DNA of 64,000 nucleotides from Parasphingorhabdus flavimaris (lineage in GTDB: Bacteria > Pseudomonadota > Alphaproteobacteria > Sphingomonadales > Sphingomonadaceae), in contig NZ_JABWMH010000004.1 of the NCBI RefSeq assembly GCF_013371215.1, positions 1 through 64,000 on the forward strand. The letters run 5' to 3'. Of the stretch, positions 31,003-38,857 are shown piece by piece. The notes under the pieces are model-generated. The model worked only from the letters and a program-made list of their open reading frames with translations. It ran no database searches and was not told where the DNA came from. The translations under genes were made by a program, and so were the position numbers. Position 1 is the first letter of the stretch. Each line of letters starts with the position of its first letter.

Positions 31003-32673
<1,671 letters not shown>

Positions 32674-32705
32674 TTAGTTGATTGAAATTATGATGGGGGA
32701 AGCAA

Positions 32706-32996
32706 TTACTTCTCGATAATACCGAGAATATCGCTTTCCTTCATGATGATCAGCTCTTCGCCGTCAACGGTGACTTCGGTGCCGGACCATTTGCCGAACA
32801 GGATCTTGTCGCCTTTTTTGACGTCAAGCGCTGTGGTCTTGCCATTGTCGTCTTTCAGGCCATTGCCGACAGCGACAACCTTGCCTTCTGATGGCTTTTC
32901 CTGTGCGCTATCCGGAATGATGATGCCGCCCGCAGTTTTGGTATCCGCTTCTACGCGGCGCACCAGTACACGGTCATGTAATGGACGAAATTTCAT
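32706..32996 (-). CDS. groS: Co-chaperonin GroES (10 kDa)
   Basis: A 96-residue heptameric lid for GroEL. It begins [18 protein letters not shown] and contains the mobile loop around [16 protein letters not shown]. The start at 32996 follows AAAGGGAAATCT; an upstream in-frame ATG at 33032 would add 12 basic residues not seen in the family. First gene of the groESL operon. Confidence 0.97.
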
Positions 32997-33075
32997 AGAT
33001 TTCCCTTTCTTGCCCAATCCAAATCTCTTCATGCCAGCGGTTCGCCGCCGACCGGAAGAGCAGAATATATGTGAA

Positions 33076-33102
33076 TTAGCACTCTATGCTTCCGAGTGCT
33101 AA
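33076..33102 (-). promoter_or_regulatory. CIRCE operator (HrcA-binding inverted repeat)
   Basis: TTAGCACTC at 33076-33084 and GAGTGCTAA at 33094-33102 form a perfect 9-bp inverted repeat with a 9-base spacer, the exact CIRCE consensus bound by the HrcA heat-shock repressor. It lies 80 bases upstream of groS, in the likely 5' leader or promoter. hrcA is not in this window. Confidence 0.97.
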
Positions 33103-33232
33103 CAGGCCCCATGTAGTCCTTATTCATCCACCGTCAAGGGAAAGGACAGAAATTATTTTGGTTAATTTTTGTTGGATTTCCAAGGCATTCCGATTCTTTT
33201 TTCTGCAATACGCAATGCTACGGAAGCGCTGT

Positions 33233-33258
33233 GTAACCGGATCGCCAGCGCCGCCGAA
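33233..33258 (+). promoter_or_regulatory. ECF-sigma type promoter for the bufferin operon
   Basis: GTAACC (33233-33238), a 16-base spacer and CGAA (33255-33258) form an ECF-type promoter with the usual AAC-containing -35 element. It lies 66 bases upstream of the bufferin precursor ATG. From memory, this is very close to the motif described for Caulobacter SigF, the ECF factor paired with NrsF, whose homologues are encoded at the end of this operon. The site is seen directly; recognition by that sigma factor is inferred. Confidence 0.65.
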
Positions 33259-33323
33259 TATCATCACGAGCCCGCATTGGCAGGCTCGCACCTGTTCCCC
33301 CATATACAAGAGAGGAAAATTTC

Positions 33324-33617
33324 ATGTCTGTTCTAATGAAAACCACCGCCGCCGCTGCATCACTGGCTGCCGCCGCGACACTGTCCCTTTCCGCCACCGC
33401 TGCTGAAGCCGCCGGGGCCAAGGAGAAATGCTATGGCGTCGCGCTTGCCGGCAAGAATGACTGCGCCGCCGGGCCGGGCACGAGCTGCGCCGGAACATCG
33501 ACCGTGAATTATCAGGGCAATGCCTGGAACTATGTCGCCAAGGGCGCCTGCGTCAAAATGGGCGGCACGCTGACCGCGCACGAGGGCAATGCGAAACCGG
33601 TTCCTAAAAAGGGCTGA
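33324..33617 (+). CDS. bufA1: Bufferin-type RiPP precursor (BufA1, DUF2282)
   Basis: A 97-residue secreted precursor. Residues 1-30 are a signal peptide (charged start, Ala/Leu core, AEAA). The mature part has four cysteines, C36, C47, C55 and C76, in the DUF2282 spacing ([30 protein letters not shown]). In characterised bufferins the central pair is converted to thiooxazole groups by a DUF692 enzyme, and the product protects against copper; that chemistry is known for the family and inferred here. AGAGGAAAAT precedes the ATG. It is the first gene behind the ECF-type promoter and is followed after 18 bases by its presumed modifying enzyme. Confidence 0.92.
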
Positions 33618-33635
33618 ACGCGCTAGATTCCGTGG

Positions 33636-34550
33636 ATGATTCCGATTTCTGATCCCGACGCTTCGCCAGCCACGCCTGTGCCATGTTCCCTCCCTCCATT
33701 GAGTGGCATAGGCCTTAAATCGGTGCATTACACCCATGTGCTCGACGATGACACGGCGGCGAAACGACCTTCCTGGGTTGAGGTTCATCCACAGAATTAC
33801 TTCGGCGATGGCGGCCCGGCACACCGCTGGCTCACCGCCATCGCCGGGGTTTATCCCCTGAGCTTTCACAGCGTCGGCCTGTCCCTCGGCAGCGCGGACG
33901 GGCTCAACCGCGACGATCTGGAAAATATCGCCGCACTTTGTGACCGGTACCAGCCGGCGATGGTGTCCGACCATCTCAGCTGGAGCGGCAATGCCCATGA
34001 CCGCTATCCCGATCTGCTCCCCATTCCCTACACGCAAGAAGCGCTGCATCATTTTGCCGGCGAGATCGGCAAGGTCCAGGACCGGCTGCAACGCGCCATC
34101 CTGATCGAGAATCCGTCCCGCTATCTCTCCTATCGCGACGACGAAATGGGCGAGACCGACTTCATCCACGCCTTGTGCAGGACATCGGGCTGCGGACTGC
34201 TGTTCGATATCAACAATGTCGAGGTCAGCGCCACCAATGTCGGACTAGACATGCAGGACTATATCGACGCGATCGACCCGGGAATCGTCGGCGAGATCCA
34301 TCTGGCCGGCCATGCGAGGGAAGAACATGACAGCGGGCCGCTGCTGATCGACGATCATGGCTCGATTGTCAGCGATATCACCTGGAACCTCTACCGCCGC
34401 TTTGTCGAACGGGCCGGTCCCAAACCGACCCTGATCGAATGGGACAGCAATATTCCCGAATATGATGTGCTGATGGCCGAGGTCGCCAAGGCAGACGCTG
34501 TTCTGACCAATGCTTCGCTGGAAGAGTCCCGCCATGCCCTCGCTCGCTGA
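33636..34550 (+). CDS. bufB: MNIO-family multinuclear iron oxygenase (BufB, DUF692)
   Basis: A 304-residue TIM-barrel enzyme of the DUF692 family, homologous to MbnB of methanobactin synthesis. Acidic and histidine residues that can bind two or three irons are in EVHPQNYFGDGG (49-60), FHSVGLSLG (78-85), SDHLSW (111-116), IENPSRYLS (158-165), DINNVEVSATN (191-201), EIHLAGH (220-226) and DDHGS (239-243). It should oxidatively modify cysteines of the adjacent precursor. The ATG has little ribosome binding site; conserved sequence starts near residue 22 (LSGIGLKSVHY). Its stop lies inside the next gene (17-base overlap). Confidence 0.92.
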   Translation: MIPISDPDASPATPVPCSLPPLSGIGLKSVHYTHVLDDDTAAKRPSWVEVHPQNYFGDGGPAHRWLTAIAGVYPLSFHSVGLSLGSADGLNRDDLENIAALCDRYQPAMVSDHLSWSGNAHDRYPDLLPIPYTQEALHHFAGEIGKVQDRLQRAILIENPSRYLSYRDDEMGETDFIHALCRTSGCGLLFDINNVEVSATNVGLDMQDYIDAIDPGIVGEIHLAGHAREEHDSGPLLIDDHGSIVSDITWNLYRRFVERAGPKPTLIEWDSNIPEYDVLMAEVAKADAVLTNASLEESRHALAR

Positions 34551-35262
34551 CGGCCAGTCGCGCTTCATCGCCTGCCTTCAGAAGGGCCCCGGGCATTTTC
34601 CCGACGACCTGTTCGCGCAGGATGCGGAACGCGCGTTGCTTGGCCTGAAGGCGCATGCGAACAACATCTCGCACGCCCGTCTGGTGTCGCTGGAGGACAG
34701 TTTTCCGCGACTGCACGCCCATATGGGCCATGAAACCTTCCACGCCATTTCCCGCGATTATGTCGATCAGGGCCATGTCATGGCCTGCGACATCAATCAC
34801 ATTGCCGCCGATTTCCCGAATTTTCTGGTGACTCGCGAACAGGCAGGCACCGCAATCGATCTCGCCCGGATCGAATGGGCGTGGATCGAGAGCTATCGCG
34901 CCGCAGAGGCCACGCCGGTTGCGCTGACCGACATTGCCGCCCTGCCCGAAGACGCGCTGCTCGCTTTCCCGGTCGCCGCCCATCCGGCCATGCGACTGAT
35001 AAAGATCACCGGGCCGATGTCGCCGGAACTCGGCGAACTGGTCGAGACGGACCCGAGCGCGCTGATGGTCGCCCGCCCGGAAGCGCTGGTTTCTCTCCAC
35101 CCGCTCGATACAGTGGAACAGGCGATTGCCGAAAAAATTGCCGATAGCGGAACCATGGGTAACCTTTTGGCGCATGCGCTCGAACTGGGGGATGAAACAA
35201 CGGCAATGCAGCATATTATCACGCTGATCCAGGCCGGGGCGATGACGCGCATTCAGGGGTAG
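34534..35262 (+). CDS. bufC1: BufC1-type partner protein (DUF2063)
   Basis: A 242-residue protein. The N-terminal part (RFIACLQKG through HAHMGHETFHAISRDYV) is a DUF2063 domain, and the C-terminal region is a divergent winged-helix-like segment. In bufferin and methanobactin pathways proteins at this position bind the MNIO enzyme and recruit the precursor. The ATG at 34534, preceded by GGAAGAG, is preferred over 34510, which would add eight residues from within bufB. It overlaps bufB by 17 bases, indicating translational coupling. Confidence 0.9.
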   Translation: MPSLADGQSRFIACLQKGPGHFPDDLFAQDAERALLGLKAHANNISHARLVSLEDSFPRLHAHMGHETFHAISRDYVDQGHVMACDINHIAADFPNFLVTREQAGTAIDLARIEWAWIESYRAAEATPVALTDIAALPEDALLAFPVAAHPAMRLIKITGPMSPELGELVETDPSALMVARPEALVSLHPLDTVEQAIAEKIADSGTMGNLLAHALELGDETTAMQHIITLIQAGAMTRIQG

Positions 35263-35268
35263 AAGAAC

Positions 35269-35730
35269 ATGAACAAGAAGATGACAAAGAAACTGGTCGG
35301 CCTGATCGGCGGCACCATTCCCGAGGGCATCGCGCTTCTGGTTACCCGTATCGCCCTCGCCGGAATATTCTGGCGGTCGGCCCGTACCAAGGTTGAAGAA
35401 GGCAGCATCCTGACGATCAAGGACACGACATTCTACCAGTTTTCGGACGCCCCGTTCAACCAGGTGCCGATACTCAACGGCGACCTGGGTGCCTATGTGA
35501 CCACCTATATGGAGCATTTGCTGCCGGTCCTGCTGGTTCTCGGGTTGGCAACGCGGCTTGGAGCACTCGGCATATTGGCGATGACCATGGTGATCCAGAT
35601 ATTCGTGTTCCCGGAAATGATCATCTGGTGGCAGACCCATATCCTCTGGGTCGCGATGGCGCTTGTCCTGATCGTGCGAGGCGGCGGCATATTCTCGCTG
35701 GACCGGCTGACCGGTCACAAACTGGGCTGA
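35269..35730 (+). CDS. DoxX family membrane protein
   Basis: A 153-residue protein with four helices of the DoxX type (ALLVTRIALAGIFWRSARTKV in the first; YVTTYMEHLLPVLLVLGLATRLGA in the second). It begins seven bases after the DUF2063 gene and ends five bases before the sigma factor gene. DoxX genes commonly accompany DUF2282-DUF692-DUF2063 operons; their role there is not established. A membrane redox or stress function is assumed. Confidence 0.9.
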   Translation: MNKKMTKKLVGLIGGTIPEGIALLVTRIALAGIFWRSARTKVEEGSILTIKDTTFYQFSDAPFNQVPILNGDLGAYVTTYMEHLLPVLLVLGLATRLGALGILAMTMVIQIFVFPEMIIWWQTHILWVAMALVLIVRGGGIFSLDRLTGHKLG

Positions 35731-35734
35731 TCCG

Positions 35735-36259
35735 GTGATCGCGAACGAGGAAACCTTTCGTCATCTGATGATCAGGGCACAGGGCGGCGACAAGCTTTGC
35801 TATGCCAGTCTGCTCACCGAATGCGAAAAATGGCTGCGCCGCTATTATGGTCGAAAGATCAACCCGTCGGCGATCGATGATCTGGTGCAGGAAACATTGA
35901 TCTCGCTCCACCGCAAGCGCGCCAGCTACGATCCGACAAAAGCGTTCCTGCCCTGGCTGGCCGCCATCGGACGCTACCGCTGGATCGACAGTTTGCGCAA
36001 AATATACCGGCACGAACATGACCAGCTGTTTGAAGAAATGGTCGCCGATCCGCAGGACGAGGACATGACCGCCAGGGTCAGCCTGGCACGGTTGCTGGGG
36101 ATGCTCCCCGAAAAACAGGCCGAAGTGATCAGTCTGGTCAAGATTGAGGGCCTCAGCATCAACGAGGCCTCGGCGATGACCGGGCAGTCGGAATCACTGG
36201 TCAAAGTGAATATCCATCGCGGTCTCAAAAAGCTCTCATCGATGGTTGAGACCGAATGA
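35735..36259 (+). CDS. ECF RNA polymerase sigma factor (SigF-like)
   Basis: A 174-residue sigma-70 family protein with only regions 2 and 4. Region 2 contains INPSAIDDLVQETLISLHR and the -10 helix AIGRYRWIDSLRK; region 4 has LPEKQAEVISLVKIEGLSI and the helix-turn-helix ASAMTGQSESLVKVNIHRGL. The start is GTG, four bases after the doxX stop; ATG at 35768 is an alternative. The NrsF-like anti-sigma gene follows after 16 bases. Together they resemble the Caulobacter SigF-NrsF pair, which answers to chromium, cadmium and copper. It probably drives the promoter at 33233-33258, and thus its own operon. Confidence 0.92.
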   Translation: MIANEETFRHLMIRAQGGDKLCYASLLTECEKWLRRYYGRKINPSAIDDLVQETLISLHRKRASYDPTKAFLPWLAAIGRYRWIDSLRKIYRHEHDQLFEEMVADPQDEDMTARVSLARLLGMLPEKQAEVISLVKIEGLSINEASAMTGQSESLVKVNIHRGLKKLSSMVETE

Positions 36260-36275
36260 AAATAGAAGAGTTTAA

Positions 36276-36914
36276 ATGATGTCAGACAAGATGATAGATA
36301 GCCTGGTCGATGACCTGACACCGGTCAAACCGTTGAAGGCCCGGAGCGGGCTGGCACTGACTCTGGTGATCGCTGCTGTTTTTGCGGTCGCCGTTGCAGT
36401 GTTCGGCGGGCTCCGTGGCGACATATTGATGGGCATACCGCACCCGATGTTCTTTCTGCGCGCCGGCGCCTTGCTTTTGCTTGGCGTGACCAGCAGCTAT
36501 GCGGTCATCGCGATGAGCCAGCCCGCCGTCGGCAACAGCTTCAAGGGCTGGGTCTGGGCATTGCTGGCCGCCTTGCTCTTTCCGGCCACAGCCATCGTCA
36601 TGGCGATGATGGCCGCGCCGGATAATATGGCGATACTGGTGCCGCGCTATGGCCTCGAATGTCTGGGCATCAGCATGCTGCTGGGGACCGGTATAGCCGC
36701 AACCCAGATCATGTGGCTCCGGCGCGGCGCGCCGGTCGCGCTTAATCGCGCCGGATGGCTGGTCGGCATGTCTTCTGGCGCTCTGGGCGCAGCCGCCTAT
36801 AGCCTGCATTGCCCGTTCAACAGCATATTCTATGTCGGGCTGTGGTATTCGCTGGCGGTGGTCCTGTGCGCCGTGGTCGGCCGCCTGGTCGTTCCGCACC
36901 TTATCCGCTGGTAA
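36276..36914 (+). CDS. nrsF: NrsF family membrane anti-sigma factor (DUF1109)
   Basis: A 212-residue protein with a short cytoplasmic N-terminus and six predicted membrane helices. Two cysteines stand out: C129 in RYGLECLGISML and C179 in YSLHCPFNSIFYV. They match, nearly to the residue number, the two conserved cysteines of Caulobacter NrsF (131 and 181) that are needed for metal response. It should hold the sigma factor at the membrane and release it on metal or thiol stress. It is the last gene of the operon; AGAAGAG precedes the ATG. A third cysteine (C198) lies in the last helix. Confidence 0.92.
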   Translation: MMSDKMIDSLVDDLTPVKPLKARSGLALTLVIAAVFAVAVAVFGGLRGDILMGIPHPMFFLRAGALLLLGVTSSYAVIAMSQPAVGNSFKGWVWALLAALLFPATAIVMAMMAAPDNMAILVPRYGLECLGISMLLGTGIAATQIMWLRRGAPVALNRAGWLVGMSSGALGAAAYSLHCPFNSIFYVGLWYSLAVVLCAVVGRLVVPHLIRW

Positions 36915-36964
36915 TCTCCCGATCCGATCCCATATAGGGCAGGTAATCCAGTCAACGCAGGGAC

Positions 36965-38857
36965 ATGAATATGCAATTTGCACGGGCAGCATGGAGATTT
37001 CTGGTCGCCATCAAGGACGGCATGGTCCTGATCGCCATGCTGCTGTTCTTCGGTCTGCTCTATTCCCTGTTGTCAGCGCAGCCGAACAGCGCGTCGATCC
37101 GCGACGGCGCCTTCTTGCTCGACCTGAACGGCGTGATTGTCGAAGAACCGGCCGCACCGACGTTCGAAGACCTACTCGCCAGCAATAGTGACAGTCCGCG
37201 CGAATATCGCCTGCGCGACGTCGTCCGCGCGATCGATGCAACGGTCGAGGATGACCGCGTCAAAGCCATCGTTCTTGACCTCAGCCGTTTCATCGGCGGG
37301 GGCCAGACCAGCCTGACCGATGTCGGCGAAGCGCTCGACCGGGCCAGGAAGGCAGGAAAGCCCGTCTATGCCTTTGCCAATTTCTTCGGCGATGACGGCT
37401 ATCAGCTGGCGGCCCATGCCACCGAAATCTGGATGGACCCGATGGGCGGAATTATCTTCGCCGGCCCCGGCGGCAACCGCCTCTATTACAAGGGCCTGAT
37501 CGATCAGCTCGGCGTGACCGCCAATATCTACCGCGTCGGCACCTACAAGAGCGCCGTCGAACCCTATATGCGCGCCGACCAGTCGCCGGAATCGCGGGAA
37601 GCATCCGAAGCGCTCTACGGCGTGCTGTGGGACAGCTGGCTTGCCGAAGTGAAAAAGGCGCGGCCCCAGGCTGTGATCCAGCCCTTTGCCGATGATCCTG
37701 CCGCTTTCATCACCGCAGCAGGTGGCGATATTGCTTCGGTCGCGATCAGGCAGAAACTGGTCGACAAGCTCGCCGACAAGACCGCTTTTGACCGGTTTGT
37801 TGCGGACAAGGTCGGCGTGGACGAGACCCCCGCACCCGACAGTTTCAAAAGCATCAACTATGACGACTATGTTGCCGCAAATCCGGTTGAGACCAAGGGT
37901 TCGCCCATCGGTGTGATCACAGTCGCCGGCGAAATCATCGGCGGCAAGAGCGGAACGGGCAAGGCCGCCAGCGGCCGCATCGCCGAACAGATTTACAAGG
38001 CGCTGGACGAAGACGAGATCAGGGCGCTGGTGGTCCGGGTCGATTCACCCGGTGGCTCAGCCTTTGCCAGCGAGGAAATCCGCCTGGCGCTGCTGCAAGC
38101 AAAGAAAAAGAAGCTGCCGATCGTCATTTCGATGGGCGATGTCGCGGCCAGCGGCGGCTACTGGATTGCCGCTGCCGGCGACCATATTTTCGCCGAGCCG
38201 GATACGATTACCGGGTCGATCGGTGTGTTCGCGGTTCTGCCCAGCTTTGAAAAAGCGCTCGCCAAATGGGGTGTCACCGCCGACGGCGTCCAGACCACCC
38301 CCTTGTCCGGCGAACCGGATTTTGTCGGCGGCTTCAGCGAGGATCTCAATCTGGTCCTGCAGTCGGGCGTGGAAAACAGCTATCGCGATTTCGTGACGCT
38401 GGTTTCCGAAGCACGCGGCAAGACGCCGGCCGAGGTCGACAGCATCGGACAGGGCCGCGTCTGGGACGGCGGCACCGCGCGGCAGCTCGGCCTGGTCGAC
38501 GGCTTTGGCGGCATGACCGAGGCCCTTGCGGAAGCGGCCAAACGGGCGGGTCTCGAAAAGGGCGAATATCATGCGCAATATCTCGACCCGAAGGTCGGCC
38601 TCTCCTGGCTCCCCTTTGATGGCATTCCCTTTGTCCGGCAGGAAGGCGCTCCGGTAACCGGCGTCATCGGCTGGGCTGCCCAACGCCAGAAGGCGATTGT
38701 CGGCCAGGCAATGGCCGCCGCCCAGGGTCTGCTGGTGCGCGAAGATGTCCAGGCCCTGTGCCTCGAATGCGGCACCGGCGTGCACCGGAACAGCCAGGCA
38801 TCTGCCAAATGGATAGATCGGCTGCTCGCTTATTCCTTCTCTTCGGCGCCGCGATAG
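36965..38857 (+). CDS. sppA: Signal peptide peptidase SppA, 67K type
   Basis: A 630-residue inner-membrane serine peptidase that degrades cleaved signal peptides. An N-terminal anchor helix (about 18-37) is followed by two tandem S49 domains. The catalytic lysine is K195 in VGTYKSAVEP, in the first domain, and the serine is S396 in VAASGGYWIAAAGD, in the second; this split site is the hallmark of the long form. An alternative start is ATG two codons later (MQFARAAW). The last 28 bases overlap the convergent TRIC-like gene. Confidence 0.95.
   Translation: MNMQFARAAWRFLVAIKDGMVLIAMLLFFGLLYSLLSAQPNSASIRDGAFLLDLNGVIVEEPAAPTFEDLLASNSDSPREYRLRDVVRAIDATVEDDRVKAIVLDLSRFIGGGQTSLTDVGEALDRARKAGKPVYAFANFFGDDGYQLAAHATEIWMDPMGGIIFAGPGGNRLYYKGLIDQLGVTANIYRVGTYKSAVEPYMRADQSPESREASEALYGVLWDSWLAEVKKARPQAVIQPFADDPAAFITAAGGDIASVAIRQKLVDKLADKTAFDRFVADKVGVDETPAPDSFKSINYDDYVAANPVETKGSPIGVITVAGEIIGGKSGTGKAASGRIAEQIYKALDEDEIRALVVRVDSPGGSAFASEEIRLALLQAKKKKLPIVISMGDVAASGGYWIAAAGDHIFAEPDTITGSIGVFAVLPSFEKALAKWGVTADGVQTTPLSGEPDFVGGFSEDLNLVLQSGVENSYRDFVTLVSEARGKTPAEVDSIGQGRVWDGGTARQLGLVDGFGGMTEALAEAAKRAGLEKGEYHAQYLDPKVGLSWLPFDGIPFVRQEGAPVTGVIGWAAQRQKAIVGQAMAAAQGLLVREDVQALCLECGTGVHRNSQASAKWIDRLLAYSFSSAPR

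Follow-up and report, generated by a model that had tools for sequence, protein, structure and literature searches.

We report that the bufferin operon bufA-bufB-bufC-doxX-sigF-nrsF of Parasphingorhabdus flavimaris, contained in a 64,000-nucleotide stretch of contig NZ_JABWMH010000004.1 (referred to as the window), is a Buf1 bufferin cluster under SigF/NrsF, i.e. an extracytoplasmic function (ECF) sigma factor and its anti-sigma factor, and that the sigma-F motif preceding the operon recurs within bufC and upstream of distant genes, among these a lone second bufferin precursor. The best explanation, and in our view a highly probable one, is a sigma-F envelope programme that links copper chelation to methionine repair. 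A more far-reaching proposal, to which we give slightly less than an even chance, is that one SigF-controlled BufBC pair matures two bufferins within a copper and methionine-repair programme, namely a soluble bufferin in cis and, in trans, a membrane-anchored lipoprotein, and that a feedback promoter lies in the bufC codons, such that in these sphingomonads one DNA stretch would be under selection for its protein and its promoter function alike.

The six genes adjoin on the + strand (33324-36914) and are densely spaced, with intergenic distances in order of +18 bp, an overlap of 41 or 17 bp, +6, +4 and +16 bp. All six products pass the curated Pfam cut-offs, and together with gene order and strand this bears out the initial annotation, which had described a contiguous six-gene bufferin operon with its own sigma/anti-sigma pair. 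Specifically, bufA (33324..33617) encodes a DUF2282 (Buf1) bufferin precursor of 97 residues (PF10048, 82 bits), in which Cys 36, 47, 55 and 76 are each present in at least 98% of 41 aligned rows and whose Ala-rich hydrophobic N-terminus appears signal-like, as judged by eye rather than by a predictor. The bufB gene (33636..34550) encodes the MNIO (DUF692) maturase (PF05114, MbnB_TglH_ChrH, 314 bits); the product scores 344 bits with the NCBIfam model NF050167 MNIO_BufB (cut-off 310) and matches PDB entry 3bww in a sequence search (E 5.4e-39), and no other protein of the genome matches PF05114. The DUF2063 partner BufC (PF09836, 41 bits, cut-off 27.2) is encoded at 34510..35262, with the start at 34510 or, more likely, 34534, and its best match in a PDB sequence search (E 0.045) was to unrelated proteins. 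These are followed by doxX (35269..35730) for a DoxX-family membrane protein (PF07681, 53 bits), sigF (35735..36259, GTG start) for a SigF-like ECF sigma factor (PF04542, region 2, 45 bits; PF08281, region 4_2, 50 bits), and nrsF (36276..36914) for an NrsF-family anti-sigma factor (PF06532, 151 bits, covering the full length, 1-204 of 204) in which Cys129 and Cys179 are kept in 40 of 40 aligned rows. The locus thus has the four-Cys DUF2282 precursor, bufferin-type MNIO and DUF2063 partner in the order bufA-bufB-bufC that mark a Buf1 cluster, as well as the combination of an ECF sigma factor, carrying regions 2 and 4, with an adjacent PF06532 anti-sigma factor that marks a SigF/NrsF (ECF16-type) pair. 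The closest NCBIfam models for bufA, bufC, doxX and nrsF stayed below their cut-offs. A Buf2 (BufA2) identity for bufA was rejected on its score (NF050166, 27 bits against a cut-off of 60), and none of the 32 genus genomes has a match above the NF050166 cut-off.

Upstream of the operon, 65 bp before bufA, lies P1 (33233..33258, + strand), an exact copy of GTAACC-N16-CGAA, which is the SigF-binding consensus of Caulobacter crescentus (PMC3511200). This copy had been recognized as an ECF promoter in the initial annotation; a second one, at 35159-35184, was overlooked. For comparison we used 63 related loci, of which 58 have a bufA match and were scored for P1 (the other five lack such a match). 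Among the 38 sphingomonad loci with a bufA match, 34 carry the exact motif and four a copy with one mismatch, at 53-90 bp from the estimated bufA start, while outside the sphingomonads it is exact in Magnetovibrio (L079) and carries two or three mismatches in the remaining 19 loci. Scoring of the other strand in these 58 loci (all taxa) gave no exact match and two with one mismatch. The window contains two exact copies of the pattern, compared with 0.04 expected from shuffles. Across the genome the pattern is not enriched (180 matches with at most one mismatch versus 253 for the reversed pattern), and for this reason the motif is informative only together with position and conservation. Twelve genomic matches are exact. 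Seven of these belong to the operon (P1), the bufC interior, the lone precursor, the microprotein-MsrA unit, MsrB, DUF1223 and gor; the other five, which have no assigned target (L008, before a MerT-like gene, and L002, L003, L005 and L007), are probably due to chance.

The second copy, P2 (35159..35184, + strand), is likewise exact and is situated inside bufC, 84 bp upstream of doxX, which is followed by sigF-nrsF. Of 57 loci with a doxX match that were scored, all 39 from sphingomonads have an exact P2, and the 18 non-sphingomonad loci have three or more mismatches each. The motif is read in the codon layout xGT-AAC-C.. and ..C-GAA. Across the 39 loci the first residue is Gly in 32, Cys in four, Arg in two and Ser in one, and the residue preceding GAA is Ile, Leu, Thr, Val, Ala, Cys or Asp, with the motif bases constant throughout. 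To this we add a scan of third codon positions against codon usage (40 rows), where a column was flagged if at least 97% of the rows had one base and less than 80% was expected. In bufC four of 238 columns were flagged, residues 217, 218, 224 and 225, which are exactly the four P2 codons, and the corresponding numbers are 3/285 for bufB, 1/174 for sigF, 0/140 for doxX and 0/205 for nrsF. Since the rows are related, the z-scores of the scan are not probabilities; the contrast inside bufC holds regardless. As judged from these patterns, P2 seems to be a sigma-F motif for sigF that is retained inside the coding sequence of the upstream gene. That P2 is not a promoter, and that the match persists owing to the encoded protein or to a constraint acting locally on codons or RNA, we consider very improbable. 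P2 does sit in coding sequence where some residues are conserved (NLL...E), and chance exact matches occur in this genome, as the five copies without an assigned target illustrate, but the bases are the same in 39 of 39 loci while the amino acids encoded at the GT codon and ahead of GAA differ, no other bufC codons exceed the scan threshold, and consensus and spacing are identical to those of P1.

A dedicated promoter immediately before sigF was rejected, as the best match within 300 bp has at least two mismatches in all 41 loci scored. In Ancylobacter (L080) and Rhizobium (L087) a variant, GTAACA-N16-CGTA, is present about 20 bp before sigF. The initial annotation had also predicted a self-amplifying loop, and because a second conserved motif, the one in bufC, precedes sigF, such a feedback is better supported than was known at that time; on sequence grounds it is plausible, albeit unproven.

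The genome contains two DUF2282 genes and one MNIO gene. The second DUF2282 gene is located on another contig (G000:C5:121567-121923) and encodes a protein with a lipoprotein-type signal ending in LSAC and the BufA-like four-Cys core. An exact sigma-F motif is present 60 bp upstream of its start, and within 1.5 kb on each side there is no match to an MNIO, bufC, doxX, sigF or nrsF. The initial annotation, in which the operon was correctly read, had noticed neither this additional precursor nor the further regulon members. The lone precursor was found in 31 of the 32 genus genomes, and in the 30 loci scored the motif is exact in 22, has one mismatch in three, two in one and three in four. A lipobox pattern ([LVIAM][ASTVIGL][GAS]C within residues 11-40, a pattern and not a signal predictor) is present in 28 of 30 genus loci, the exceptions being L170, for which our script picked a start too far upstream, and L173, where the frame is broken. 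A single MNIO match was obtained in 27 of the 32 genomes and none in four (three of these 82-89% complete); G100 has one full match and a 39-position match 1.3 bits above the cut-off. Beyond the genus, lipoprotein-type DUF2282 genes in other genera of the family are preceded by the motif in G041, G037 and G077 and lack it in G001, G095, G068 and G087. In G077 (L136) bufB is preceded by a tandem of a lipoprotein-type and a soluble DUF2282 precursor; both have a motif of their own, one exact and one with a single mismatch.

Given that there is a single MNIO in the genome and none nearby, the lone protein, if modified, would need BufBC in trans. Its modification by this route and its lipidation are both inferences. 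For lone bufferin precursors, modification by a maturase from another locus and a lack of modification are both considered possible, a point that the literature has left open (PMC12452194). It is therefore conceivable, at odds somewhat short of even, that the lone DUF2282 protein acts as a metal-binding lipoprotein without modification, co-regulated with the operon, and is not a substrate for a ribosomally synthesized and post-translationally modified peptide (RiPP) pathway. The lack of an adjoining MNIO and the single MNIO in the genome fit with this, as do the three MNIO-less genomes of 82-89% completeness, which hold the lone gene, although it is broken by stops in one of them. In favour of a bufferin, on the other hand, the protein retains both the four-Cys core of BufA and its flanks, and the only MNIO-less genome that is at least 90% complete, G110, is also without the lone-precursor gene.

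The SigF switch appears to control, apart from this membrane-anchored precursor, protein-repair enzymes encoded elsewhere in the genome. Exact sigma-F motifs precede the genes for MsrB and MsrA, both exported, and for a DUF1223 protein that is secreted (export judged by eye), and we scored these motifs across the genus loci. Before msrB the motif is exact in 23 of 30 loci, one off in six and absent in one (G110), and in the 29 motif-bearing loci it is positioned 28-32 bp from the start; it is also exact in both genus genomes outside the 30-locus set, and absent from the short MsrB paralogues found in five genomes. Before the microprotein and msrA it is exact in 30 of 30 loci, and before the DUF1223 gene in 27 of 28, where the 28th is a gene fragment at a contig end without upstream sequence. 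The microprotein (L204 1339-1497, G000 contig C1), encoded between the motif and the exported msrA, has 52 residues and is of a single-helix type (KSDLTYSL...). In 31 of 31 genus loci, G110 included, this msrA leader product has 51-57 residues with one hydrophobic stretch; its start is 25-28 bp past the motif in the 30 motif-bearing loci, and searches against Pfam and NCBIfam gave no family over the cut-off. A motif with at most one mismatch is also found in 28 of 30 loci of gor (glutathione reductase; L262-L291), within the 3'-terminal coding part of the gene upstream, for which the codon scan flagged 15 of 226 columns, six of them in residues 210-218, including four that are motif codons. 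This support is weaker than that for P2, and we have therefore excluded gor from the claimed regulon.

The genome G110 (97% complete) may serve as a natural control. In it no NrsF, no MNIO and, at E 1e-30, no DUF1223 orthologue was obtained (sigF itself was not searched for), a protein search gave no relative of either the lone precursor or BufA, and its msrB, gor and msrA have lost the sigma-F motif. Of the genomes at least 90% complete, G110 alone gave no operon genes.

On the basis of these data and by analogy with C. crescentus we propose the following scheme. The membrane protein NrsF would perceive envelope stress, most likely excess copper, by way of Cys129 and Cys179 and would then set SigF free. 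In C. crescentus NrsF retains SigF at the membrane and frees it when two conserved cysteines are disturbed (PMC3511200), and Cys129 and Cys179 correspond to these. SigF would then transcribe the operon from P1 and, from P2 in the bufC codons, doxX-sigF-nrsF, which would allow the switch to be increased independently of the peptide genes. BufB and BufC would convert Cys47 and Cys55 of BufA to thiooxazoles prior to Sec export, with a loss of 4 Da for each cysteine, and modified BufA would bind copper in the periplasm. The choice of these two residues, already made in the initial annotation, agrees with what is described for Buf1 peptides, where the central cysteines become copper-binding thiooxazoles and the outer two are disulphide-bonded (PMC12452194). 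SigF would also serve the distant genes, i.e. the lone DUF2282 precursor, the exported MsrB, the putative membrane microprotein with the exported MsrA, and the secreted DUF1223 protein, and the lone precursor, if modified at all, would be matured in trans by the single BufBC pair. With such distant targets copper chelation would be joined to the repair of oxidized envelope methionines.

With respect to the inducer, copper is the best answer by analogy, because the SigF regulon of C. crescentus, including sigF and MsrPQ, is induced by copper and a sigF::Tn5 insertion renders the cells sensitive to this metal (PMC8224329). NrsF-type switches in other bacteria respond to hypochlorous acid and drive periplasmic methionine repair (PMC8315932, PMC4623255), and the inducer may for this reason be copper, an oxidant or both. 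That it is oxidizing stress such as hypochlorous acid and not copper, with the NrsF cysteines reacting, methionine repair as the core function and the bufferin as a thiol-type scavenger, we regard as unlikely; the exported MsrA and MsrB in the regulon and the NrsF-type systems just mentioned are consistent with it, whereas hypochlorous acid is not among the inducing agents listed for C. crescentus in the source parts at hand.

Several points weigh against the proposed scheme. NrsF reaches only 81 bits with the NCBIfam equivalog AntiSigF_NrsF (NF042994, cut-off 300), and the NrsF assignment is that of Pfam. P2 may be inactive, or a relic retained for another reason, and autoregulation of sigF in C. 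crescentus is weak under chromate (PMC3511200). Control of the lone precursor by sigma-F is not universal in the genus, as its motif is degenerate in G102, G113, G114 and G126 (three mismatches) and in G118 (two). Finally, the co-occurring losses in G110 concern a single genome, and G113 (87% complete) has no NrsF or MNIO match, sigF not having been searched for, and yet exact motifs before msrA and msrB.

As for the genomic setting, divergent groES-groL genes are located upstream of the operon and sppA downstream. A perfect inverted repeat, TTAGCACTC-N9-GAGTGCTAA, which we take to be of the CIRCE type, is present at 33076-33102, before groES-groL and 130 bp from P1. At the Rfam gathering score no family was detected in 32600-37000. 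The closest named relatives are genomes of Sphingorhabdus and Parasphingorhabdus.

Compared with the SigF/NrsF regulon of C. crescentus (CC3252-CC3257, CC2905-CC2907, CC2748/MsrPQ), as far as it is covered by the parts of the papers available, the system shares the six families, the promoter consensus, the two NrsF cysteines and a regulon member that repairs methionine sulfoxide in the periplasm. It differs in that sigF-nrsF of C. crescentus is a separate unit with its own SigF promoter, whereas here the second motif is inside bufC, and in that C. crescentus has two bufferin operons and MsrPQ, compared with one operon, a lone lipoprotein-type precursor, MsrA/MsrB, the microprotein and DUF1223 here. 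The six-gene kind with sigma factor and NrsF is already known among the Buf1 clusters, which likewise have the bufABC order, a four-Cys DUF2282 precursor, the DUF2063 partner and DoxX (PMC12452194); the sections of that paper available to us make no mention of an internal sigma promoter or a lone lipoprotein-type Buf1, lipoproteins being mentioned for approximately 16% of Buf2 only. In the same source sigma genes are reported only for Buf1 clusters. In L097, L100, L102 and L110, from other genera of the family, bufA-doxX-sigF-nrsF is divergent to a Cys-Lys-rich precursor, Buf2-like by eye, with an exact sigma-F motif. Lipidated MNIO products are known as well, as DAG-RiPPs, and the lone precursor resembles these in being a lipobox-bearing potential MNIO substrate; a subset of bufferins is also said to bear lipoprotein signals (PMC12636315). 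DybA and NedA, the products described in that source, are, however, made by enzymes of their own clusters (DybH, and NedB with NedC, respectively), while here the precursor is alone on another contig. For EGKCG products a loss of 4 Da per cysteine is reported (PMC12636315). With the SigF/NrsF hypochlorite systems (yedYZ-mrpX; bcrXQP) the system has in common an NrsF-type switch that drives periplasmic methionine repair, but these rely on MsrPQ-type enzymes and a methionine-rich peptide instead of MsrA/MsrB and bufferins, and bufferin genes are not mentioned in the portions of the reports available (PMC8315932, PMC4623255).

The internal promoter and the lone lipoprotein-type Buf1 were not found described in the titles and abstract openings of the literature searched, the original bufferin paper being outside this scope. 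To that extent the conserved bufC motif, the lone lipoprotein-type Buf1 that occurs genus-wide with the same sigma-F motif upstream and is accompanied in most genomes by only one MNIO, and the predicted MsrA, MsrB, DUF1223 and microprotein members of the regulon appear to be new. P2 represents a clean candidate for dual coding, as protein and as ECF promoter. Moreover, the regulon would tie copper-chelating peptides to methionine repair through an enzyme set unlike that of Caulobacter, and a genus whose genomes mostly combine a single MNIO with two DUF2282 precursors, each preceded by the same sigma-F motif, makes the question of trans-maturation directly testable.

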